The translations under genes and the position numbers were made by a program. From Prochlorococcus marinus str. MIT 9314 (GTDB lineage: Bacteria; Cyanobacteriota; Cyanobacteriia; PCC-6307; Cyanobiaceae), in NCBI RefSeq assembly GCF_000760035.1, contig NZ_JNAO01000002.1, forward strand, positions 1-64,000: a stretch of DNA of 64,000 nucleotides, in the 5' to 3' direction. The notes beneath the pieces were generated by a model, which saw only the letters and a program-made list of their open reading frames with translations, was not told where the DNA came from and did no database searches. Positions 5,674 to 46,725 of this stretch are shown here, one piece after another (within the stretch, counting starts at the first letter, position 1; the number at the start of each line of letters is the position of its first letter).

Positions 5674-5804
5674 ATTATTAATGCCACGAAAATTTACTAT
5701 TTTCACAATATTTTTATATCTTTTTGAATATATTTAATGGAAATAAAATTTGATCCAAATAATAATAAGGGATATTTGAAATTAAATAAGACAGTTGCTG
5801 GTAT

Positions 5805-6098
5805 ATGAAAAAATTTTATAAATTTCTTAAAAGTTTTCTATTTATATCACTATGGCTTATTTTATCCTCATTTTTAACCCAATATTGGAATACCTTTCAT
5901 TGGGAATATGTTTATTTAAACTTCAGAATTATATTTGATAAAGAATTTTGGTTTGTTGTAGAAAAAATTCTTTTAGGATTTGATATAGGTTACTGGTTAG
6001 AAGAAGCACTAAAATTCTTAAGTTATGAAATACCTAAAGAATCATTTAAATATTTACCAATTTATTTCGTATTAAAGTCTATTTGGATAAAGAGTTAA
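5805..6098 (+). CDS. Hypothetical aromatic-rich membrane protein
   Basis: 97 residues. Hydrophobic segment at 9-26, then a Phe/Trp/Tyr-rich region that is probably membrane-associated. No domain recognised. A possible 23-residue ORF (5737-5808) overlaps its start codon in an ATGA arrangement and might couple translation; I do not list that ORF as a gene. It converges with the PAP/fibrillin gene at 6108. Confidence 0.55.
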   Translation: MKKFYKFLKSFLFISLWLILSSFLTQYWNTFHWEYVYLNFRIIFDKEFWFVVEKILLGFDIGYWLEEALKFLSYEIPKESFKYLPIYFVLKSIWIKS

Positions 6099-9976: not shown

Positions 9977-10291
9977 ATGCTTAGAAATCAAGAAAAAAAT
10001 TCTGTTGTTAGAGGAATATTCCTAATAGGAGGTTGGGGCTTAGGTCTAGACAGATTCTACGAAGGGTATAAAAAAGGTGGCTTTTTATCAATCATTGGTT
10101 GGAGTATCACATTTTTTAGCTTTATCTTTCTTAAATGTTCAGGTTATGAATATGTTGAAGGTGTTAAACATTATTCAGATTATTCCCCTAACCCTTTAAT
10201 AGTATTACCTTTACTGGCAGGAGCATATGGTGGCTTTCTAATAATTAAGAAGGCATTTAGATTAGCAAAACAATTTGAGAATGCTGAATAA
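9977..10291 (+). CDS. TM2-domain membrane protein
   Basis: 104 residues. Gly-Gly-Trp-Gly-Leu-Gly-Leu-Asp-Arg-Phe-Tyr-Glu-Gly (about 18-30) is the first-helix and loop signature of the TM2 domain. Two helices follow and a third near 70-87. TM2 proteins are small membrane proteins of poorly known role. A 17-bp palindrome lies directly upstream. Confidence 0.75.
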   Translation: MLRNQEKNSVVRGIFLIGGWGLGLDRFYEGYKKGGFLSIIGWSITFFSFIFLKCSGYEYVEGVKHYSDYSPNPLIVLPLLAGAYGGFLIIKKAFRLAKQFENAE

Positions 10292-10308
10292 TACTACCAG
10301 CAGTTAAT

Positions 10309-10470
10309 TCAAGATAATAATCCAGATCCTTTCAAATAAAATTTAAATAAAAGAATCACTAAAAGGTTTACTATTGCTAAAGCTACTAAACCATTTCTGT
10401 TTTTTACATCTAATTTCTTGACTAAATTAGAAAGATAAACTACTGGATTTTCTGGCTCTTTATTATCCAA
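10309..10470 (-). CDS. 53-aa small membrane protein (TTG start)
   Basis: The frame has no ATG. The first usable start is TTG at 10468-10470, and the stop is TGA at 10309-10311. Acidic start, then one transmembrane helix at about 28-45. The Asn-Arg-Asn-Gly-Leu-x-Ala-Leu stretch recalls high-light-inducible proteins, but the defining Glu-x-x-Asn-Gly-Arg-x-Ala-Met is not there. I therefore leave it as unknown. Confidence 0.45.
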   Translation of the reverse strand: MDNKEPENPVVYLSNLVKKLDVKNRNGLVALAIVNLLVILLFKFYLKGSGLLS

Positions 10471-10566
10471 ATTTTTTTTAAATATTAATTTGACAAGAAA
10501 ATATCACAGTTTCATTTGAAGAATCAAAATTGTAAAGATGAATATCCCAAAAGAAATAAATAATTT

Positions 10567-10941
10567 TTAACCCATAATTCCTGCATTTCTTAAAAACGCT
10601 TTACCCATATTGCCAATTACAAAAAATAGAGACAGATTAATTAAAAGGACTATTAATAATGCCAACATTTTATAGTTTGGATTAGTTGAAATGCCATCAA
10701 ATCCATTATTGAGAAATCTTTTAAAAAGTGATTTGTCAATTTTTAGTTTTTGTTGCTCAGAATCAAGTTTTACTTTTTCTTCTGAAGAATCTTGATTACT
10801 TGCTTTCTCTAGAAATTCTGTAAATGCCTTAACATTTTCTTCTTTTTTATTCCCCTCATTAAGATCATTATTGTCTTCATTCAAATTGGGGGACGATTCG
10901 ATTGAATTATTTTCCTCAGGATTAAGTTTTGAATCTTCCAA
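10567..10941 (-). CDS. Acidic protein with C-terminal membrane anchor
   Basis: 124 residues. The first 65 are Asn/Glu/Asp/Ser/Lys-rich and probably disordered. One transmembrane helix lies at about 91-111, followed by a short tail. A tail-anchored arrangement is suggested. No family recognised. Confidence 0.55.
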   Translation of the reverse strand: MEDSKLNPEENNSIESSPNLNEDNNDLNEGNKKEENVKAFTEFLEKASNQDSSEEKVKLDSEQQKLKIDKSLFKRFLNNGFDGISTNPNYKMLALLIVLLINLSLFFVIGNMGKAFLRNAGIMG

Positions 10942-11120
10942 ATTAATAGTAAATGCTAGGAGTATATTACACCATAAAAAAAACCCACTCGATCAAATGA
11001 AGAGAGGGTTAGCTAAGGTTAAAGTTCCTAATTTGATAATAATTTATTTTATTTAAATTTGCGGTTTTAGCATAATGAAGTTTTAAATTAGATTATATTC
11101 AAGGTGATTTTTTCTTACAT

Positions 11121-11327
11121 ATGTTAGATGCAAATACTAAAAAAGCATGTAAAGATGATCCCTCAATAAGAGAAATTAAAATTAGAAATATAGAACATGC
11201 TATTGAACAAGCAGAATTGATGATAAAAGAATCAAAAATGAGCCAAGAAGAATTAATCTTTTTAAAAAGAAAAATATCGGACTCAAGACAAGATTTAGAG
11301 ATACTTTATTTAATGAAAATTCAATAA
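11121..11327 (+). CDS. 68-aa helical hypothetical protein
   Basis: Highly charged and helical, with heptad-like Ile/Leu spacing through residues 20-64. It is probably a coiled coil or helical hairpin. No membrane segment. The ATG at 11121 is the only sensible start. Unknown function. Confidence 0.55.
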   Translation: MLDANTKKACKDDPSIREIKIRNIEHAIEQAELMIKESKMSQEELIFLKRKISDSRQDLEILYLMKIQ

Positions 11328-11442
11328 ATATAAATTTGTTAATCTTTAAAAGGATTGAATTTATACAAAGAAAATTAATTTGTATATTTGAAGACTTATA
11401 AAGTTTAAAGGGAATGTAATTATTTGTATAAAGGGTCTAGTT

Positions 11443-11544
11443 ATGTCTAAAAATAATCTATATATACCTTTAAAGGTTGTTCCATACATCTTCATTTCAA
11501 TTACTGCCATAGCAATAACAGCAGCTACATATGTAATTACTTAG
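11443..11544 (+). CDS. 33-aa single-helix membrane peptide
   Basis: ATG at 11443, stop TAG at 11542-11544. One helix of Ile/Ala/Thr character occupies residues 9-32. Its size suggests a small membrane-complex subunit, but I do not recognise it. Confidence 0.45.
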   Translation: MSKNNLYIPLKVVPYIFISITAIAITAATYVIT

Positions 11545-11608
11545 TTCTATAAACTATGTAAAGTTTTCAGATATTAAGTAAATTAAAATATTTGTAATAA
11601 CTAATTGT

Positions 11609-11851
11609 ATGAATAAATTCAAAATAGCAATTTTTACAATATCAATAATCATATTTTCCCTAATTGGCATTAAAAAATTAATTTATATAAATCAAGTTAA
11701 AGATATAAAAAATAAAGAAGAATTATTCTTAAATGAATCTATACGTGTTTTAAATGAATGTTTCGATCTAGAAAATAAAAATAAAAGAACTCTTAATAAA
11801 TCAATTGAATTAATTGAGTATTGCTTAGAGGAATATGGATATAAAAACTGA
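11609..11851 (+). CDS. Small signal-anchored protein
   Basis: 80 residues. An N-terminal helix (4-27) is followed by a charged helical region with two cysteines near residues 51 and 72. Exported or membrane-anchored. Unknown. Confidence 0.5.
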   Translation: MNKFKIAIFTISIIIFSLIGIKKLIYINQVKDIKNKEELFLNESIRVLNECFDLENKNKRTLNKSIELIEYCLEEYGYKN

Positions 11852-11978
11852 TTTCAAAACTTGAATTATGAATTTCCTTAATACTCCACTAATATGCAAA
11901 TAAAAATTTCTCATCAATAATCTTGTTATGTTCCATAATTTTTTATTAATAATATTTTCCTAATTAAATTTTTTTAAA

Positions 11979-12386
11979 ATGACTAAAGTTAAATGTTCTT
12001 ATTTAGGAAATTTAAACTGTGAGGCTATTCATCTACAATCTGGAAGTCTTATTAGAACTGATGCACCTTTAGATCACTGCGGTAAAGGTGAAAGTTTTTC
12101 CCCAACTGATTTATTAGCAACATCTCTAGGTACTTGCCTGCTAACCATCATGGCAATCAAAGCCAAATCGAAAGGATTTGATTTGAAAGGTATATATTTA
12201 AATATTGAAAAAGTAATGACACAAAATAGCGAGAGGAAAATAAAAGAACTAATAATAGATATTTTCATCCCAGAGAGCACTTCTAATGAAACTATTGATT
12301 TTTTGAAAAAAGCTTCCAAAGAATGTCCAGTTACAAGAAATTTATCTCAAGAAATAGATATTAAAATTAGTTGGCATCATGAATAA
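11979..12386 (+). CDS. OsmC-family peroxiredoxin-like protein
   Basis: 135 residues. The two redox-active cysteines of the OsmC/Ohr fold are present: Cys53 in Gly-Thr-Cys-Leu-Leu-Thr and Cys116 in Lys-Glu-Cys-Pro-Val. The preceding Phe-Ser-Pro-Thr-Asp-Leu-Leu-Ala-Thr-Ser-Leu motif is also conserved. These proteins reduce organic hydroperoxides with thiols and act in the cytoplasm. Complete and normal in length. It is a single gene, followed 30 bp later by a very small membrane ORF. Confidence 0.88.
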   Translation: MTKVKCSYLGNLNCEAIHLQSGSLIRTDAPLDHCGKGESFSPTDLLATSLGTCLLTIMAIKAKSKGFDLKGIYLNIEKVMTQNSERKIKELIIDIFIPESTSNETIDFLKKASKECPVTRNLSQEIDIKISWHHE

Positions 12387-12416
12387 ATCTCAAACATAGT
12401 AATTACATAAAAAATA

Positions 12417-12527
12417 ATGAAATACTTTATTGGAATAATCATTCTTTTAGTTGGAATATATATAATGACAAACTTGGCATTAAAGACTAGGTATACAAGG
12501 AAAAGACTTTCAAAAGGAAAAAAATAA
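12417..12527 (+). CDS. 36-aa membrane peptide with basic tail
   Basis: ATG at 12417, stop TAA at 12525-12527. One transmembrane helix at 3-22, then a strongly basic tail (Arg-Tyr-Thr-Arg-Lys-Arg). Downstream of and possibly co-transcribed with the OsmC gene. Unknown. Confidence 0.45.
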   Translation: MKYFIGIIILLVGIYIMTNLALKTRYTRKRLSKGKK

Positions 12528-12598
12528 ATCCTATAAATTTTAATATTGCAGATTAAGGAAATAGATTTATATACTGACCATTAAGGCATATTTTATTT

Positions 12599-12883
12599 TT
12601 ATTTTTTCACTATTTTTTGATCAATCAAACTAATCAAAGGAATCATGAAATTTACATTTATTCCAACAGTGCACCATGTATAAATAATAAGAAAAAATAT
12701 TTTTATAAATAAATTAGGGGGTAAAGTGAAAAATATTTTGAAAAACCCTCCAATGAATAATACCAATATTCCAATTTGAAAAAGACCTTTGATTATCCAT
12801 TTAAGTCCATTTTTTTTAATGTTTATATAAAACCAGAAAAAAACAAAACCAGATAAAAATAAATATATAAAATTTATGATCAT
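12599..12883 (-). CDS. Hydrophobic multi-helix membrane protein
   Basis: 94 residues with about three hydrophobic segments (2-20, 30-50, 57-85) and very few charges outside the loops. No family recognised. Confidence 0.55.
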   Translation of the reverse strand: MIINFIYLFLSGFVFFWFYINIKKNGLKWIIKGLFQIGILVLFIGGFFKIFFTLPPNLFIKIFFLIIYTWCTVGINVNFMIPLISLIDQKIVKK

Positions 12884-13021
12884 CTTTTTAGAGAAAATCT
12901 AATAAATTTGCCATTATCAAGGCATGATGACAATTATCACTTTTTTATCTGCTAATTTTTTTTTAAAATGGAAAAGTTATACAAAAAACAATAAATACAA
13001 ATTTTTTTTTTACTTTTTATC

Positions 13022-13405
13022 TTAAAACATTTTCGATTTTAGTAAATCAACTCTTTTTTGATTCACGCCCAAATCACTTTCTCCAACTCTTGATTCTGAT
13101 CTTATTGATAAGATGTTTGATTCAGGTAGAAAGGATACTTCTAAGTCGTCTACATACTTCATCCATTTACTGGTTGCCTCAGCATGAAGATAATCGCCAT
13201 CAATTTCAACAATCTCAGTTCTTGGAGTGTTTTCGATAAATGCTTTAATCTCTTCAAAAGGTTTCTCAATATCGTTTACCTCCCATTCCTCTCGTACACA
13301 ATGAGCAATCTCTACACAAGGTTTTAGTTCTATATGTGAGGCATATGATGAAGAAGGGAATAAAAAGCTTGAACAAATTAAAATTGCTAAAAAAAGTATT
13401 TGCAT
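13022..13405 (-). CDS. DUF1499-family secreted protein
   Basis: 127 residues. Signal peptide at 1-22 (ending Ser-Tyr-Ala-Ser). The body matches DUF1499: a Cys near the start of the mature part, a central Tyr-Leu-His-Ala-Glu-Ala-Thr-Ser segment, and the closing Ile-Arg-Ser-Glu-Ser-Arg-Val-Gly-x-Ser-Asp-Leu-Gly-Val-Asn-x-x-Arg-Val pattern. The family is common in phototrophs and its function is unknown. Location likely periplasm or thylakoid lumen. Confidence 0.85.
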   Translation of the reverse strand: MQILFLAILICSSFLFPSSSYASHIELKPCVEIAHCVREEWEVNDIEKPFEEIKAFIENTPRTEIVEIDGDYLHAEATSKWMKYVDDLEVSFLPESNILSIRSESRVGESDLGVNQKRVDLLKSKMF

Positions 13406-13534
13406 TGACAGAAGAATTTATCGACTCATAATCTAACGAATTAATTTACTAATTTGTAATGAAGACCTAAATTATTTTGGAAGAAAGCATATATGTTTTT
13501 ATAGTCAGAATTAAATATGTATTTCTAAAAATCC

Positions 13535-13640
13535 AAAAAAAAGACCTCTCAGAGAGAGATCTTTTTAAAATTGATTTATATCAAGTGTTTCCTTGTTTCC
13601 ACTGAAATAAATCAATTCCTCCTACACACAAACCTAATAT
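13535..13640 (-). ncRNA. Yfr2-family small RNA candidate
   Basis: Minus-strand features in order. GTGTGTAGGAGG (13629 down to 13618) can pair with the Yfr1 core with one bulged C. A perfect 9-bp stem (TTGATTTAT / ATAAATCAA, 13615-13607 and 13579-13571) follows. Its loop holds the double GGAAAC motif GGAAACAAGGAAACA (13600-13586) that marks the Yfr2-5 family. Last is an intrinsic terminator whose arms (13572-13537 region) pair completely with one G-U wobble only when read on the minus strand, followed by eight U. A GATATT -10 candidate lies near 13636-13641. Ends are estimates. Family placement rests on motif recall, not on a search. Confidence 0.8.
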
Positions 13641-13702
13641 CACACCAAAATTCAAAATATGTAATGCTTATTAGACCTCTATCTTAACTGTCACATGGCA
13701 AA

Positions 13703-13811
13703 AAATACAAAAAGTACTCAAACATCGAGGTCGGAGTACTTTTAAAGTTATCAGAAAAAAGTGTGTGAGGAGTTTCTGATGTGTTTAATCTACTCCGTAG
13801 TTAATTTAAAA
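13703..13811 (-). ncRNA. Structured RNA candidate showing the Yfr1 core motif in a hairpin loop
   Basis: Read on the minus strand there is a TATACT -10 (13823-13818) and then three hairpins. The first is UUAACUAC-GGA-GUAG(A)UUAA (about 13804-13785). The second has a perfect 8-bp stem AUCAGAAA/UUUCUGAU (13780-13773 with 13757-13750). Its 15-nt loop displays CUCCUCACACAC. The third is a 10-bp perfect stem AAAAGTACTC/GAGTACTTTT (13743-13734 with 13719-13710), followed by a T-rich run as in a terminator. The 14-nt ACTCCTCACACACT at 13773-13760 is identical to that in Yfr1 at 46628-46615. It lies directly upstream of the Yfr2-like RNA on the same strand. No credible ORF was found in it. Confidence 0.7.
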
Positions 13812-13896
13812 GGCTACAGTATAAATTACTAATTATTTAAATCTTTCAGAAAAATTTGGCGTTGATGAAAAAAATAATCAAAAACATAAAAAATTC

Positions 13897-14031
13897 ATGA
13901 AAAGCATTTACAAAAAAATCATTTTTATTATTTCAGCAATTGCTCTTTTTTCAGTAATAGTAGGTGTTGTCAAATATTCGCTTACTTATATTGAAAATAA
14001 TCCCGAAAAATACCTACCTACACAAAAGTAA
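13897..14031 (+). CDS. 44-aa membrane peptide
   Basis: ATG at 13897, stop TAA at 14029-14031. Basic start, one helix at about 8-27, polar tail. The frame is open further upstream but without a start codon. Unknown function. Confidence 0.45.
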   Translation: MKSIYKKIIFIISAIALFSVIVGVVKYSLTYIENNPEKYLPTQK

Positions 14032-14108
14032 GACAAAAATTAAGTATAAATTCACTTCAAAAAATCTATAAAGTGTCTTAAATATGTTCTACATAGACAG
14101 CTTGAGTC

Positions 14109-14252
14109 ATGAAAATCAAAAATACTTCAGTTCTTAATCAGAATAATATTGATTTAAGTCAATTCAAAAATAAGCATAAATATCAAATACTTGAGAATTA
14201 CTGGAAGAAAAGAAAGAAAGAATGTGAAAAAAATCTTTCAAAATTTTGCTAA
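14109..14252 (+). CDS. 47-aa basic hypothetical protein
   Basis: ATG at 14109, stop TAA at 14250-14252. Soluble, Lys/Asn-rich, with a Tyr-Trp-Lys-Lys-Arg-Lys-Lys cluster and two cysteines near the end. The next gene starts 9 bp later. Unknown. Confidence 0.45.
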   Translation: MKIKNTSVLNQNNIDLSQFKNKHKYQILENYWKKRKKECEKNLSKFC

Positions 14253-14261
14253 CCGATAATT

Positions 14262-14510
14262 ATGAATTTTATTTTTTCTTTTTTATTAGCATCTGTAATG
14301 TGGGTACAAGTTCCACAATGGGAAGCTGACTGGTCAAAATGTGCTGTAGATGTTCCTGATTCTTCATGTCACTGGTACGTAGCTGCTCCCGATAATACTT
14401 TTGGGGAAGGATTTAATTGGGAAAACGCTCCTTGGTTTGATGCTAATGGATTACAGGATGTAGCTAAGATTGAGAAAGAATCTGTAGTAGAAAAACTTCA
14501 GAATAACTAA
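14262..14510 (+). CDS. Small secreted Trp-rich protein
   Basis: 82 residues. A short hydrophobic N-terminus (1-16) resembles a signal peptide, although the cleavage site is weak. The rest holds seven tryptophans and two cysteines (near 27 and 36) that could form a disulphide. It ends in a charged helix. Probably lumenal or periplasmic. No family recognised. Confidence 0.55.
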   Translation: MNFIFSFLLASVMWVQVPQWEADWSKCAVDVPDSSCHWYVAAPDNTFGEGFNWENAPWFDANGLQDVAKIEKESVVEKLQNN

Positions 14511-14593
14511 AGTTTCTATTTCATCAATTAACTTTTAAAAGTATTTAAATCTAGTTGCTTAGTGGTTAACTTTTGATTAATTAAATAATTTTT

Positions 14594-14740
14594 ATGCGTT
14601 TTAAAGTAAGTCTCAAAAAAAATGGAAAGGAATTTGATGAAGTTGTTATAGCTAATAATAAAAAAGAAGCTATGGAAGTAGCTTTAAAAAACAATCCAGA
14701 AGCTCAAGCATTAAACTCTGATTGGACATTTAAGATTTAA
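14594..14740 (+). CDS. 48-aa hypothetical protein
   Basis: ATG at 14594, stop TAA at 14738-14740. Looks like a small beta-hairpin plus helix (Lys-Lys-Glu-Ala-Met-Glu-Val-Ala-Leu). Its stop abuts the convergent stop of znuB. Unknown function. Confidence 0.5.
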   Translation: MRFKVSLKKNGKEFDEVVIANNKKEAMEVALKNNPEAQALNSDWTFKI

Positions 14741-15526
14741 TTATTTGCGAAGGTTAGGAATTAAAAGGGACGCAACACAAATAACGCTAATTGCAGGTCC
14801 AGGCGAAAGATTAAAGACTATAGAGAGAATAAATCCAAGAAGTGAGATACATAATCCAAAAAATGAAGACCTCATCATTGCAATTCTTAAACTATGAGCC
14901 TTATTTATCCCTAACAAAGTTGGCGTAGAAAGAAGAGCAATTACAAGAATTACTCCCACTGCTGACATTGAACTAACAATTACTAATGCCGTTGTAAAAC
15001 TCAAAGCAAGATTTAATAAAGAAACGTTTATACCACTCGCGGATGCACCTTCTGGATCTAATCCAACATAAACAACCTTTTCATATCCAAAAGTCATTAA
15101 AAGTATAAATACTAAAAAAGCAATTATTGTTCTAAGTAAATCTCCAAAATTTGCTGTCAATAAATCGCCAAATAATACTGCCTCCAAATCAATCCTTATT
15201 CCGAGTAGAGGGATTATAAGGACTCCGAACCCAAGCATTCCAGCGAGAATAGTATTCATAACTGCTTCATAATTTTCACTTTTTCTATTAGTTAAACTTT
15301 CTGCAATTACTGAGCCCAGAAGACCACTTATAACACCACCAATTGAGGGGTGAATTCCAAGCGCTAATGCGAGAGCAAGTCCAGGCAACACACAATGAGA
15401 GATTAAATTAACTTGTAATAATCTCTTATGAGTGATTAATACAGTTCCCATAGCTGGGCATAAAATCCCGGAGAATATAGTTATTATTAATGGAACCAGC
15501 CACCAGTTGTTATTAATAAAAGACAT
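14741..15526 (-). CDS. znuB: Zinc ABC transporter permease ZnuB
   Basis: 261 residues with seven or more membrane helices, typical of the ABC-3 metal permease family. The central Asn-Leu-Ile-Ser-His-Cys-Val-Leu-Pro-Gly-Leu-Ala-Leu segment (near residues 40-52) and the Leu-Leu-Ser-Thr-Pro-Thr loop late in the protein fit the family. With ZnuC and ZnuA it imports zinc from the periplasm. On this strand it lies downstream of znuC but is separated from it by zur, which runs the other way. Its start codon is 17 bp from the first possible zur start, so promoter regions must overlap coding sequence. Confidence 0.93.
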   Translation of the reverse strand: MSFINNNWWLVPLIITIFSGILCPAMGTVLITHKRLLQVNLISHCVLPGLALALALGIHPSIGGVISGLLGSVIAESLTNRKSENYEAVMNTILAGMLGFGVLIIPLLGIRIDLEAVLFGDLLTANFGDLLRTIIAFLVFILLMTFGYEKVVYVGLDPEGASASGINVSLLNLALSFTTALVIVSSMSAVGVILVIALLSTPTLLGINKAHSLRIAMMRSSFFGLCISLLGFILSIVFNLSPGPAISVICVASLLIPNLRK

Positions 15527-15543
15527 TATTCGAATGATTCGGT

Positions 15544-15978
15544 ATGATCAAAAATACGGGACAAAAAAAGATTTCGGAAACAATGGTAACTAAGTCTGAC
15601 ATTACCAAAAGACAAGAACAACTTCTTGAAGAACTTAATAAATGCGAGGATGAATTGACTGGTCAAGAGTTGCATAGACAATTGATAGAAGGCGGAAAGG
15701 CTATGGGTCTTACGACTGTTTACAGGAATCTTCAAGTTCTGATAAAGCATGGCTTAATACGTTCTAGACATCTACCAACTGGAGAGGTTCTTTACACTCC
15801 CGTAGATAGAGATATTCATCATTTGACCTGTGTTCAATGTGGTGAGACATCAAAAATGGAAGGATGCCCGGTAAAAGATATTCATACACCCAAAACAAAT
15901 CCAAAGAAATTCCAATTGTTGTTTCATACCCTCGAGTATTTCGGGCTTTGCCAAAACTGTTATCAAGCTCAGAATTGA
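15544..15978 (+). CDS. zur: Zur, Fur-family zinc-responsive repressor
   Basis: 144 residues from the ATG at 15544. An internal ATG at 15583 gives 131 residues and leaves a little promoter room, and I consider it likely. The winged-helix part includes Gly-Leu-Thr-Thr-Val-Tyr-Arg-Asn-Leu-Gln, the DNA-recognition helix. The metal part has His-His-Leu-Thr-Cys-x-x-Cys (near 97-104) and a second Cys-x-x-Cys near the end (Cys-Gln-Asn-Cys), forming the structural zinc site. Position between znuB and znuC identifies it as Zur rather than Fur or PerR. It represses uptake genes when zinc is sufficient. Confidence 0.9.
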   Translation: MIKNTGQKKISETMVTKSDITKRQEQLLEELNKCEDELTGQELHRQLIEGGKAMGLTTVYRNLQVLIKHGLIRSRHLPTGEVLYTPVDRDIHHLTCVQCGETSKMEGCPVKDIHTPKTNPKKFQLLFHTLEYFGLCQNCYQAQN

Positions 15979-15991
15979 AAAGGAACATTCT

Positions 15992-16762
15992 CTAATCACA
16001 GAAATTATTTTTGTTTATAGAGCTAATGTTAATTGCCTCTAATTTATCTTTTATTTGGTCAGGACTACCAACTGCCAAAACACTTTTATCAAGAACTATT
16101 ACTTGATCATAGTTATTTAAAGAATCGCCCCAATCATGGCTACTTACGAGCAAAGAAAGTCCCGCATCCGCAAGTTGACGAACAATTTTAAGAAAATCCT
16201 CTTTTGCAGGGGGGTCCAAAGCTGCACAAGGTTCATCTAAAAGAAATATTTTTGCCGGGGACATAAGAGTTTTTGCTAATAGAGCTCTTTGCTGCTGTCC
16301 TCCCGAAAGAGAATCGAGTCTTCTATTAGCCAAACTTGCAATGCCTACTCTCTGCATTGTCGCCTCTAATTCACAACATTTATTAATCCAAGAATTAGGA
16401 TATGCTAGAAGAGTCTTAATTTGAAATGGGTTATTACTTCTTGATTTTGAATACTTTATTTGACCAAGAGATACCAATTTTTCAACTGTAATGGGGAACT
16501 TCCAATTCATAGAACTTCTTTGAGGCATAAGTGCCACAAGAGCTCTAGATCTATATAAATTTTCACCGTCAATTTTTATTTCGCCTTTATCTGGAGTATT
16601 TTGTCCTTGCAAAATTCTCAAAAGAGTTGATTTACCTGCGCCGTTTGGGCCAACTAACGCTGTTAGAGTTCCAGGTTTAATCTCAACCGATACCTTATTC
16701 AAAACTGGCTTACTTTTTTTTGCGTATGCAAAGGTTAAATTTTCAGCGACTAAAGTAGCCAT
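15992..16762 (-). CDS. znuC: Zinc ABC transporter ATP-binding protein ZnuC
   Basis: 256 residues. Walker A Gly-Pro-Asn-Gly-Ala-Gly-Lys-Ser-Thr near residues 38-46, signature Leu-Ser-Gly-Gly-Gln-Gln-Gln-Arg near 152, Walker B Ile-Phe-Leu-Leu-Asp-Glu-Pro near 172 and the switch histidine in Ser-Ser-His-Asp are all present. Energises ZnuB. It is divergent from znuA with the Zur box in between, so one operator can control both. Its 3' end is 13 bp from the end of zur on the other strand. Confidence 0.94.
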   Translation of the reverse strand: MATLVAENLTFAYAKKSKPVLNKVSVEIKPGTLTALVGPNGAGKSTLLRILQGQNTPDKGEIKIDGENLYRSRALVALMPQRSSMNWKFPITVEKLVSLGQIKYSKSRSNNPFQIKTLLAYPNSWINKCCELEATMQRVGIASLANRRLDSLSGGQQQRALLAKTLMSPAKIFLLDEPCAALDPPAKEDFLKIVRQLADAGLSLLVSSHDWGDSLNNYDQVIVLDKSVLAVGSPDQIKDKLEAINISSINKNNFCD

Positions 16763-16862
16763 TAATTAATCTTTTAAAAAAAGTCACTTTACAAGCTTAC
16801 CAATAATACAAGTTGCGTATTATTTTCATAACATTTGATACCTTTACTTGTCAGACATAATG

Positions 16863-16879
16863 AAAATGATTATCATTTT
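16863..16879. promoter_or_regulatory. Zur box between znuC and znuA
   Basis: Perfect inverted repeat AAAATGAT-T-ATCATTTT, the Fur/Zur-family operator core. It sits 21 bp before the znuA start and about 100 bp before the divergent znuC start. With zur next door, Zur control is the natural reading. Confidence 0.88.
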
Positions 16880-16899
16880 TAAGTATTAAATTATTTTTC

Positions 16900-18330
16900 A
16901 TGTCAATTTTTAAAAGACTTTTAACAAATAAAAAAGGTTCGAGTAAGTCAATTATTAAAATTTCCGTAATCGCTGGAACGATTATATTTTCTGGTTTTGG
17001 GCAGGATGTTATGGCAAAAGGAAAGTCATATGTAGCAGTAGAACCACTAGTTTGTGATTTAGTTAAATCAATTGCATTACCATCTGACGAAGTTACATGC
17101 TTAGTAGATAGAAAACAAGATGTTCATGACTTAAAGATCAATCCAAGGCAAGCTCAATTACTAAATAGCGCAGATAAAGTATTTACTCTTGGTAAAGAAA
17201 TGACTCCAAGTATGAAAAATTGGGAAAATAAAAAGAATACTGTTGTTGTAGGTGTTAGTGCAATAGACGTAGATGATCATTCTGATCATGGAGGTCATGA
17301 TGATCATGCTGAAGGTTCTTTCGAATGGGCAGGAAAATTTCAACTTTCTAAGGGTTCTTACAAATGGTCATTTGAAAAAGTCGATGGCGAATATGCTGAT
17401 CCTGCAATGAAGATGGTGATTCTTAAATCTAATGACATAGAAGGGTCTGAAGATTTAGCCAAAGAATTATTAGGATCTAAAGACTCAATAAGCAGAAAAA
17501 ATGATGGTACTTTGATAGCAAGTAATAAAGCTTTTGTTCTTAACTTTGATCAAAGAAAAGAAAGTACTGTTTTTAACGTGGATATTAAAGAAGATGGTCA
17601 ATATATATTTTTTACTGAACACATGCCTTTTGAGTTTGAAGCAACTCAACACTTTTTTAAAGACGTTTCAAATAGTGATGTAGAACCAATAGCACAAGTT
17701 CCAGACGAAGGAGAGGGGCATCATCATCATGACCATGGAGGTCTTGATCCACATGTATGGCACGATCCACATAACATCATAAAAATGGGAGATCTTATAA
17801 GCAAAAGTTTAAAGAAAGATATTTCAGTTTTTAATAGAGGTGACAGAAAACTAATTAATGAAAGATTCGAAAAAGCTGATTCTCTCTTAGAAGGCTTAGA
17901 TAGTTGGATCGTCGAACAAGTAAGCTCTATTCCTGAGGAAAACAGAGTAATTGTCTCTAAACACAAAGCATTGGAATACTACGGTGATGCATTTGGTTTT
18001 GAAACCATTAGTTTACTTGACTTTCTTGGAGACTCCTCAAGCTTAAGACCAGACAACATTAGTTCTACTTTAAAAATGTTAAATGAAGAGAAAGTTCAGG
18101 CAATATTTCCTGAACAAATTCCAGCATCTAAGTTATTAAGAAACTTAAGTAGACAAAGTTCAGTTCCTTTAGCTTCTAATCAAATATTCGTTGATGGATT
18201 GATGATGGATGGCAATACGGTTTCAGTAGCTGTTCACAATACTTGTACAATTGTTGATTCATTAGGTGGAAGCTGTGATAAAGAATCTGGCTCCAATCTT
18301 GAGTCTGAATGGTACAAACTTTCAGATTAA
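16900..18330 (+). CDS. znuA: Zinc-binding periplasmic protein ZnuA with inserted domain
   Basis: 476 residues; ZnuA proteins are usually about 300-350. Signal peptide to about residue 40. The first lobe contains the metal-ligand His in Asp-Val-His-Asp-Leu (about 76). A His/Asp-rich stretch (about 125-137) and an extra domain of about 125 residues (139-265) follow, opening with Phe141-Glu-Trp-Ala-Gly. A second His cluster (274-279) precedes the normal Leu-Asp-Pro-His-Val-Trp-His-Asp-Pro-His segment, and the second lobe is complete. The inserted domain resembles one in the adjacent CobW-like protein (see findings). Captures zinc for ZnuB. Expression is very probably repressed by Zur through the box 21 bp upstream. 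Confidence 0.93.
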   Translation: MSIFKRLLTNKKGSSKSIIKISVIAGTIIFSGFGQDVMAKGKSYVAVEPLVCDLVKSIALPSDEVTCLVDRKQDVHDLKINPRQAQLLNSADKVFTLGKEMTPSMKNWENKKNTVVVGVSAIDVDDHSDHGGHDDHAEGSFEWAGKFQLSKGSYKWSFEKVDGEYADPAMKMVILKSNDIEGSEDLAKELLGSKDSISRKNDGTLIASNKAFVLNFDQRKESTVFNVDIKEDGQYIFFTEHMPFEFEATQHFFKDVSNSDVEPIAQVPDEGEGHHHHDHGGLDPHVWHDPHNIIKMGDLISKSLKKDISVFNRGDRKLINERFEKADSLLEGLDSWIVEQVSSIPEENRVIVSKHKALEYYGDAFGFETISLLDFLGDSSSLRPDNISSTLKMLNEEKVQAIFPEQIPASKLLRNLSRQSSVPLASNQIFVDGLMMDGNTVSVAVHNTCTIVDSLGGSCDKESGSNLESEWYKLSD

Positions 18331-18407
18331 ATTTTTCTAATAAAAACGGTTTTCATTTCTTATTATTACTATGATTAAACTATTGTTTATTTAGTAAAAA
18401 TCAGTAA

Positions 18408-19757
18408 ATGAGCATCCAAGATAAAGTTCCCGTAACCATCCTCACTGGATTCTTAGGATCAGGGAAGACTACTTTGCTTAATAGAATTTTAAGTGAAGAG
18501 CACGGAAAAAGAATAGCCGTAATTGAGAATGAATACGGTGAAGTAGGTATAGATCAAGGTCTCGTAATTAATGCCGATGAAGAAGTGTTTGAGATGTCAA
18601 ACGGGTGCATTTGTTGTACTGTTCGCGGTGATCTAATAAGAGTCCTTGGCAACCTTATGAAAAGAAGAGATAAGTTTGACTATGTTTTAGTAGAGACGAC
18701 AGGATTAGCAGATCCAGGCCCAGTTGCTCAGACATTTTTCATGGATGAAGAGATTAGTTCTGAATTCACTCTTGATGGAATTGTGACTTTAGTTGATGCT
18801 GCCCACATTGATCAACAGCTAGGCAGGAGTGATGAAAGTTCAGAACAAGTAGCATTTGCAGATGTTCTGGTCCTTAATAAAACTGATTTAGTCTCTGATG
18901 ATACACTAGCTACTCTTGAATCGAGATTGAGAGATATGAACCGAATGACCCGAATTATTAGAGCCGAGAATGCCAAAGTACCCATTGAAACTGTCTTAAA
19001 TCTAAGTGCATTTGATCTTGATCAGATCCTTAAACGCAGACCAACATTTCTTGAACCAGAATATCCTTTTGAATGGACAGGTGTTTACGATCTTGATGCA
19101 GGTAAATATGAATTAATGCTAGAAGAAGGACCCGATCCAGAAATGTCTCTAGTAGCCCTCGTTAACCAAGGAGAGAATGAGGAGGAACTTAAAGATGGTG
19201 CTGAATCCTCCGTAAGACTTTATGCAGAAAAAGCTAATAGTTTAGATCCTGGAAATACTATTCCATATGGAGAACATATAAATCTCAAATTGGAGGATAA
19301 AGGAAATAAATCCTTCATCCTGAACATAGAAGAACCAACAAAAATAGGTTTGTTTACACAGCACACTGCTGAAGAATTCAATATGAAAGTCATTAAAAGT
19401 GACGAAAATAAAGAGATTCCATTTAATACTGAAAGGTTCTGGCAAGCAGAGCATGAACATGATGATGAGGTAGGCTCAATTGCTATAGAGCGTTTTGGAG
19501 ATGTTGACCCAGAAAAACTAAATACTTGGATGGGAAGGCTTCTCTCAGAAAAAGGGGTGGATATATTCAGAACTAAAGGTTTCATAAGTTACTCAGGTAA
19601 CCCAAGGCGAATAGTTTTCCAGGGAGTACACATGTTATTTACTGCACAACCTGACAAAGAATGGGGTAACGAACCTCGTAGAAATCAACTTGTTTTTATC
19701 GGTAGAAATCTAAATGAGAAAGAGATGCAAGAAGGCTTTGATAAATGCCTGATATAG
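18408..19757 (+). CDS. COG0523 (CobW/zinc-chaperone type) GTPase with inserted domain
   Basis: 449 residues. Walker A Gly-Phe-Leu-Gly-Ser-Gly-Lys-Thr-Thr (residues 14-22), the Glu-Asn-Glu-Tyr-Gly-Glu-Val segment, the metal motif Gly-Cys-Ile-Cys-Cys (near 65) and the Leu-Asn-Lys-Thr-Asp GTPase motif (near 164) place it in COG0523, whose zinc-linked members deliver zinc to client enzymes. Between the GTPase part and the C-terminal CobW_C domain (about 350-449) lies an extra domain (about 219-345) opening with Phe221-Glu-Trp-Thr-Gly. It is followed by a His/Glu/Asp cluster near 350. Lies 77 bp after znuA and overlaps the WD40 gene by 13 bp, so a zinc role is strongly suggested rather than cobalamin. 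Confidence 0.9.
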   Translation: MSIQDKVPVTILTGFLGSGKTTLLNRILSEEHGKRIAVIENEYGEVGIDQGLVINADEEVFEMSNGCICCTVRGDLIRVLGNLMKRRDKFDYVLVETTGLADPGPVAQTFFMDEEISSEFTLDGIVTLVDAAHIDQQLGRSDESSEQVAFADVLVLNKTDLVSDDTLATLESRLRDMNRMTRIIRAENAKVPIETVLNLSAFDLDQILKRRPTFLEPEYPFEWTGVYDLDAGKYELMLEEGPDPEMSLVALVNQGENEEELKDGAESSVRLYAEKANSLDPGNTIPYGEHINLKLEDKGNKSFILNIEEPTKIGLFTQHTAEEFNMKVIKSDENKEIPFNTERFWQAEHEHDDEVGSIAIERFGDVDPEKLNTWMGRLLSEKGVDIFRTKGFISYSGNPRRIVFQGVHMLFTAQPDKEWGNEPRRNQLVFIGRNLNEKEMQEGFDKCLI

Positions 19758-46587: not shown

Positions 46588-46643
46588 AAAAAAGCCCGAT
46601 TAATCGGGCGATTTAGTGTGTGAGGAGTATGGGGTTTCCCCCA
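46588..46643 (-). ncRNA. yfr1: Yfr1 small RNA
   Basis: Minus strand: a short 5' hairpin GGGGG-AAA-CCCC (46642-46631), an unpaired region with the ultraconserved ACTCCTCACACACT (46628-46615), then a perfect 16-bp palindromic terminator GCCCGATTAATCGGGC (46609-46594) and six T. This is the known Yfr1 layout, and the position between guaB and trxA matches its location in Prochlorococcus. A TATTAT -10 lies at 46656-46651, about 8 nt upstream. Yfr1 is known to repress porin-type mRNAs through the core motif. Confidence 0.95.
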
Positions 46644-46725
46644 TCATTTCATAATAACTCCTAATTAGAAAATTTTTCAATTTAATACTTAATTCACTAA
46701 GGTTTATAATTCTGCTCTAAAAGAA

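Follow-up and report, generated by a model that had tools for sequence, protein, structure and literature searches.

Three RNAs recognized by Rfam models, all on the minus strand, lie in the window (the whole 64,000-nt stretch of DNA that was analyzed, from a strain of Prochlorococcus, a very abundant photosynthetic marine cyanobacterium): a Cyano-1 RNA, a Yfr10-family RNA immediately upstream of it, and Yfr1 (Table 1). The last two have a 14-mer in common, ACTCCTCACACACT, as the initial annotation had observed and a search of the window confirmed: the 14-mer has exactly two occurrences there, each on the minus strand, and allowing up to two mismatches returned the same two matches only (shuffle control at the same tolerance: mean of 0.14 matches, with 0 of 100 shuffles reaching two). 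The minus strand of positions 13698-13780 folded at -18.1 kcal/mol (z = -4.4), with none of 200 shuffles equally stable, and the fold reads, 5' to 3', as an 8-bp stem (13780-13773 paired with 13757-13750), a 10-bp stem with 3 bp more inside, and a U-rich tail. The motif had been described as the loop of the 8-bp stem and folding bears this out except for one base, the 15-nt loop (13758-13772) containing 13 of the 14 motif bases while the initial A still belongs to the stem, as its last base. The terminator-like 10-bp stem reported beside it was also seen in the fold. An additional flanking hairpin, if CTAC-GGA-GTAG at 13790-13800 was meant, is absent from the best fold of 13690-13811, and its arms are non-complementary in some relatives (CTAAGGAGTAA in loci L064 and L097).

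Table 1. Features of the Yfr18/Yfr2-family locus and of the Yfr1 gene in the window (positions are those of the window)
Feature	Position	Strand	Basis
Yfr2-family RNA terminator	13538..13566	-	strict scan
Cyano-1/Yfr2-family RNA, counterpart of MED4 Yfr5	13564..13631	-	RF01701, 80.5 bits; gene order
Anti-motif GUGUGUAGGAG near the Yfr2-family 5' end	13619..13629	-	tandem alignment; duplex energy
Block GTGACAGTTAAGATAGAGGTCTA, partly conserved, upstream of the Yfr2-family gene	13672..13694	-	tandem alignment
Yfr18 (Yfr10 family) small RNA	13698..13811	-	RF02362 (13698-13780), MED4 gene order; 5' end at 13811 deduced from the -10 box
Terminator-like stem (13743-13710), then U-rich tail	13698..13743	-	fold; 22-sequence alignment
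Motif stem-loop	13750..13780	-	folding; two-sided changes at 4 of 8 pairs, from other genera
Shared Yfr1/Yfr10 motif ACTCCTCACACACT	13760..13773	-	exact-match search
-10-like box TATACT	13818..13823	-	alignment of 54 distinct tandems
Yfr1 RNA, motif at 46615-46628	46591..46644	-	RF01116, 58 bits

Judged by its sequence and genomic setting, the hairpin element is the known sRNA Yfr18 of the Yfr10 family (Steglich et al. 2008, PMC2518516) and not the new-looking RNA for which it had been taken. The Rfam Yfr10 model (RF02362) matched over its whole length (model positions 1-78) with 56.6 bits against a cut-off of 43, and this match together with the literature rules out a new RNA class. Three MED4 RNAs, Yfr1, Yfr10 and Yfr18, have the motif, and Yfr12 has a version that differs at two bases; Yfr10, Yfr12 and Yfr18 have been shown to be expressed in MED4 and lie directly side by side with Yfr2, Yfr4 and Yfr5, respectively (Steglich et al. 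2008, PMC2518516). Yfr10 homologues are found upstream of Yfr2 homologues in high-light strains (PMC6778093), and the window element is likewise placed upstream of a Yfr2 homologue by the Rfam matches and by the tandem pattern described below. MED4 Yfr18, at complement(972284..972388), adjoins Yfr5 (PMC2518516), and its motif was found at 972313-972302. When 7-10 kb around each of the MED4 Yfr10, Yfr12 and Yfr18 loci was compared with the window, positions 10160-19331 (∼9 kb) proved collinear with the whole 10-kb Yfr18 region, against just four matches of 45-87 nt for the Yfr10 and Yfr12 loci, so that gene order places the element at the counterpart of the MED4 Yfr18-Yfr5 locus. The exact name Yfr18, and the designation of its neighbor as the Yfr5 counterpart, are used because of this gene order and of the loop ending; correspondence to MED4 Yfr10 was considered and rejected, gene order and loop type favoring Yfr18.

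MED4 Yfr18 resembles the window RNA in its locus, its motif-in-loop hairpin and its Yfr2-family neighbor (Yfr5), but its loop ends in CACACATT where the window RNA has CACACTTT, and the sequence of its terminator stem is partly different. With the Yfr10 family at large (RF02362; MED4 Yfr10 and Yfr12) the window RNA shares an 8-bp stem whose loop presents the motif and the position upstream of a Yfr2-family gene, whereas Yfr10 proper has CACACTAA, another terminator stem and another MED4 locus. Yfr1 (RF01116) has the 14-nt motif in common, but there it is unpaired between two stem-loops rather than in a hairpin loop, as published for the two families (single-stranded linker in Yfr1, loop in Yfr10; Lambrecht et al. 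2019, PMC6778093). The RF01116 model matched the window at the Yfr1 gene only, and by both match and fold the hairpin element falls outside the Yfr1 family. In genome G152 of the family sample the best Yfr10 match (346661-346738) coincides with the published MED4 Yfr10 coordinates and the two remaining matches overlap the published MED4 Yfr12 and Yfr18 positions. In the genome from which the window comes, the Yfr10 and Cyano-1 models each find a single copy above their cut-offs; candidates for extra copies of either RNA were below them (best 27.6 bits, E = 0.037, and 21.4 bits, E = 0.25, respectively), and the 12-mer CTCCTCACACAC had one additional match in the genome at one mismatch. Apparent mentions of Yfr10 in passages of two other papers (PMC7368042, PMC5069720) are of Yfr103 and Yfr106-108.

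The Yfr2-family gene is on the same strand as Yfr18, 66 nt downstream. Passages of the Cyano-1 paper on which we draw (PMC2864571) make no mention of Yfr2; we infer that Cyano-1 is the Yfr2 family because both have the Yfr2 core GGAAACAAGGAAA (ending at 13588 in the Cyano-1 RNA) and the anti-motif, and because the gene order is that of MED4. The Yfr2-family RNA (RF01701) is separate from Yfr18, an adjoining partner that bears the complement of the motif. Its GUGUGUAGGAG pairs with the Yfr18 loop, leaving one motif C bulged, and all 60 tandem loci (54 distinct sequences) have it, within the single-stranded 5' tail. When 25-nt segments from both strands of the window (step of 12) were ranked by duplex energy with the loop, the Yfr2 5' end (-16.6 kcal/mol) came fourth among 10,664; two of the three better-ranked segments are the antisense of the motif copies and the third is inside a reading frame. 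Cofolding gained 10.6 kcal/mol for Yfr18-Yfr2 and 19.3 kcal/mol for Yfr1-Yfr2. The gain for Yfr18 may be understated because the method opens the stem and cannot represent a kissing loop; the control was weak, since the G/U-rich Yfr2 tail, when shuffled, paired equally well with Yfr18 in 14 of 500 cases. As an mRNA target within the window, the best other loop match (60928, minus strand) was considered and set aside; it is inside a 463-aa reading frame, whose product we take to resemble cobyrinate a,c-diamide synthase, and found no further support. In the spacer, the block GTGACAGTTAAGATAGAGGTCTA is on sequence grounds a possible promoter element for the Yfr2-family gene and may be a candidate CGRE1, the element for control of yfr2 genes by a GntR regulator; TGTGACAATTAA recurs in the spacers of all three MED4 tandems.

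Experiments on MED4 RNAs concern the same partners. The 5' ends of Yfr2, Yfr4 and Yfr5 can pair with the motif given one bulging C and one mismatch (PMC2518516). Yfr2 pulls down Yfr1 and Yfr10 and, in E. coli, relieves repression by Yfr1 (Lambrecht et al. 2019, PMC6778093), and MED4 Yfr2 blocks pairing of Yfr1 and Yfr10 with ppa mRNA in vitro; with Yfr10 as bait, Yfr2 itself was slightly and Yfr3-Yfr5 clearly enriched (PMC6778093). In the explanation that we favor, Yfr18 would be a minus-strand transcript that starts near 13811 and stops at its own terminator, near 13698; its hairpin loop would present the Yfr1 motif and pair via UCCUCACAC with mRNAs, partly Yfr1's own targets; and the Yfr2-family RNA, with the complement at its single-stranded 5' end, would titrate both Yfr18 and Yfr1. 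We put the probability of this explanation as a whole (Yfr18 identity, loop action and Yfr2-family titration) at roughly 0.9. The published binding and target data concern MED4 Yfr10 and Yfr1, to which Yfr18 is likened, and expression of Yfr18 in the window strain and its Yfr10-like behavior would be expected by analogy with MED4. The earlier proposal that the loop could mimic Yfr1 or compete with it is plausible in this light, a separate RNA presenting the motif in a loop, and is in essence already published (PMC6778093).

The same arrangement might instead mean that the hairpin is mainly a leader of the Yfr2-family RNA, made as a Yfr18-Yfr2 precursor in which the Yfr2 5' end is paired or shielded in cis, and itself acting little on mRNAs. 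Such a role is partly compatible with the Yfr18 identity; the close spacing between hairpin and Yfr2-family gene is conserved, and a 270-nt band in MED4 has been reported as a Yfr10-Yfr2 precursor (PMC2518516). We nevertheless consider it unlikely, given that the hairpin RNA keeps its own terminator-like stem, that its motif is identical with that of Yfr1, and that MED4 Yfr10 recovers a set of mRNAs of its own in pull-downs (PMC6778093).

Yfr18 is read as a minus-strand RNA because the oligo-U tail, the conserved TATACT, the Rfam match and the G-U variants of the stem all favor that strand. The TATACT that had been pointed out as an upstream -10 box is indeed present, starting 51 nt upstream of the motif's CTCC (13823-13818 by count), and all six of its columns are at least 90% identical over the 54 distinct tandem sequences. 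MED4 shows TAATAC in its place (comparison by eye), and the mapped 5' end of MED4 Yfr18 is 75 nt upstream of the motif, farther than TATACT implies for the window RNA. A strict scan of the window listed no promoter of Yfr18's own, with no -35 match and no -35/-10 pair, nor did it list the Yfr18 terminator, whose loop exceeds the length that the scan allows; both the terminator stem and the T-run can be seen in the 22-sequence alignment. The scan's two terminator matches come from one palindrome, read on the minus strand as the terminator of the Yfr2-family RNA (13566-13538) and in part also on the plus strand, and its sigma-70-like matches numbered 3 (shuffles, 3.5), the best (11/12) being on the plus strand at 13405-13432. 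This match would suit the suggestion of the initial annotation that the opposite strand is transcribed, its loop soaking up Yfr1 as a perfect complement. The plus strand also folds (z = -2.8), and it pairs perfectly with Yfr1 (cofold gain, -19.0 kcal/mol), as any antisense would. Against this, promoter-like matches are no more numerous than in shuffles; the minus strand is the one with the U-run, the -10-like box and the Rfam match; stem variants over 17 hairpin forms, in the minus-strand reading, include 4 G-U against 1 A-C; and MED4 Yfr18 was mapped to the strand of Yfr5 (PMC2518516). A plus-strand sponge is accordingly very improbable, and a sponge role likely fits the adjacent Yfr2-family RNA rather than the opposite strand of Yfr18.

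Stem and loop, whose loss in close relatives had been named as grounds for rejecting the element, are kept there and the loop core is nearly invariant. Across the family, RF02362 matches at E ≤ 0.001 were obtained in 17 of 201 genomes (the window's own included), 11 of them over the cut-off. Among 266 genomes of the window's genus, Cyano-1 was detected in 230 and Yfr1 in 212; the exact 12-mer CTCCTCACACAC, a count that covers Yfr1 as well as hairpin RNAs, was present in 236, including all of the 87 good ones. The tandem pattern (CTCCTCACA, 152-182 nt, GGAAACAAGGAAA) was matched in 172 of the 266 genomes and in 71 of the 87 good ones, with the reversed control for each pattern giving 0 in every row of the counts; 16 good genomes did not match, and some of the genomes without a match may be explained by draft assemblies or by the limits set on the spacing. 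A search of the named genome collection gave 109 stretches with the exact 31-nt hairpin, and among the 80 matches listed of these 109 all were Prochlorococcus or uncultured Synechococcaceae. The tandem alignment comprised 60 loci (54 distinct) with both motifs and enough flank, the rest being left out and some loci having been fetched twice. Invariance of the loop core is partly built into such sets because the core was in the motif and tandem search strings. Two samples are less biased: 30 loci taken via Cyano-1 alone (lowest E-values, from the 230 genomes), in which the hairpin was upstream in 30 of 30, with the exact 12-mer in 29 and a single C-to-T change in one; and six loci (L097-L102) chosen for having a Cyano-1 match without the exact 12-mer nearby.

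In these six loci and L064 the loop reads CACACAT (six loci) or CACAAAC (one), and the C-to-T change in CACACAT would still allow a G-U pair to the Yfr2 tail. Three loci (L015, L034 and L075) have the hairpin with no exact Yfr2 core found within 600 nt, although L034 has a Cyano-1 match adjoining the hairpin. Locus L018 (genome G017, contig 5) is a second Yfr10-type copy, possibly decaying, whose motif is altered to CTGCTCACAAAC and whose stem contains a G-U. In genome G339, contig 15 carries two tandems in opposite orientation (5790-5974, minus strand; 19304-19488, plus strand) that do not differ in the 80 bases shown; the pair may reflect a duplication or an artifact of assembly.

All 58 loci examined (the window, L015-L065 and L097-L102) yielded the hairpin, in 17 distinct forms with 10 distinct stems. 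The script used searched for CT[CG]CTCA[CT][AG] and took the arms with the most pairs, with a minimum of 8 standard pairs (7 sufficed if the 5' arm contained CAG), and it leans towards pairing because of that choice of arms and that minimum. Two-sided changes were seen at stem pairs 2, 3, 6 and 8 of 8, all of them from other genera (L024-L030), those at pairs 3 and 6 in one sequence each (L030). Over the loci examined from the window's genus, no compensatory change was found, and the stem is constant there except for a G-U (L018), a C-A at pair 2 (L041, L056) and a T-T at pair 8 (L060). The compensatory changes that the initial annotation had proposed to look for among strains thus appear against other genera and are missing among close relatives, because the stem varies too little there. 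That the element is a decaying, functionless copy of the motif, as the seven variant loops and the second copy in L018 might suggest, is scarcely credible when loop core and stem are near-constant in the genus, the element is retained across it and the stem changes on both sides between genera.

As given, the finding is an ordinary one, the RNA and its network being already known; it ties an observation on raw sequence to the published Yfr1/Yfr10-family/Yfr2 network and reassigns the likely sponge to the Yfr2-family RNA. A small extension comes from the sampled family, in which the tandem pattern (152-182 nt gap) was matched in 96 of 400 genomes and 6 of 59 genera, the window's genus included. 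The five other genera (g11, g28, g31, g41 and g56; loci L221-L223, L251-L258 and L026-L029) take the tandem slightly beyond the high-light strains for which passages of the literature describe it (PMC6778093), and we do not claim that this is unpublished. From these data one may tentatively propose, with the odds somewhat against it, that well outside high-light Prochlorococcus, too, the hairpin RNA is inherited together with its Yfr2-type antagonist as a two-RNA cassette. Such a cassette may be self-titrating, every copy of the regulator bringing its own sponge, and if it is a true one outside high-light strains it would offer a natural system of a regulator encoded beside its own titrator.

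Fifteen hand-picked tandems from the other genera were read. In genus g56 (8 tandems) the motif hairpin is the predicted fold, with a stem of about 7-10 bp, and in three of the g11 loci (L251, L253 and L254) its stem has 5-6 bp; in the fourth (L252) and in L221-L223 (g28, g31 and g41) the lowest-energy fold of the 44-nt stretch differs from the motif hairpin. The Yfr2 5' end reads GUGAGGAG, unbulged, in 13 of the 15, and L256 and L257 have one change. There are hence two pairing geometries, the bulged-C GUGUGUAGGAG in the window's genus versus the uninterrupted GUGAGGAG in most of the tandems read from other genera.
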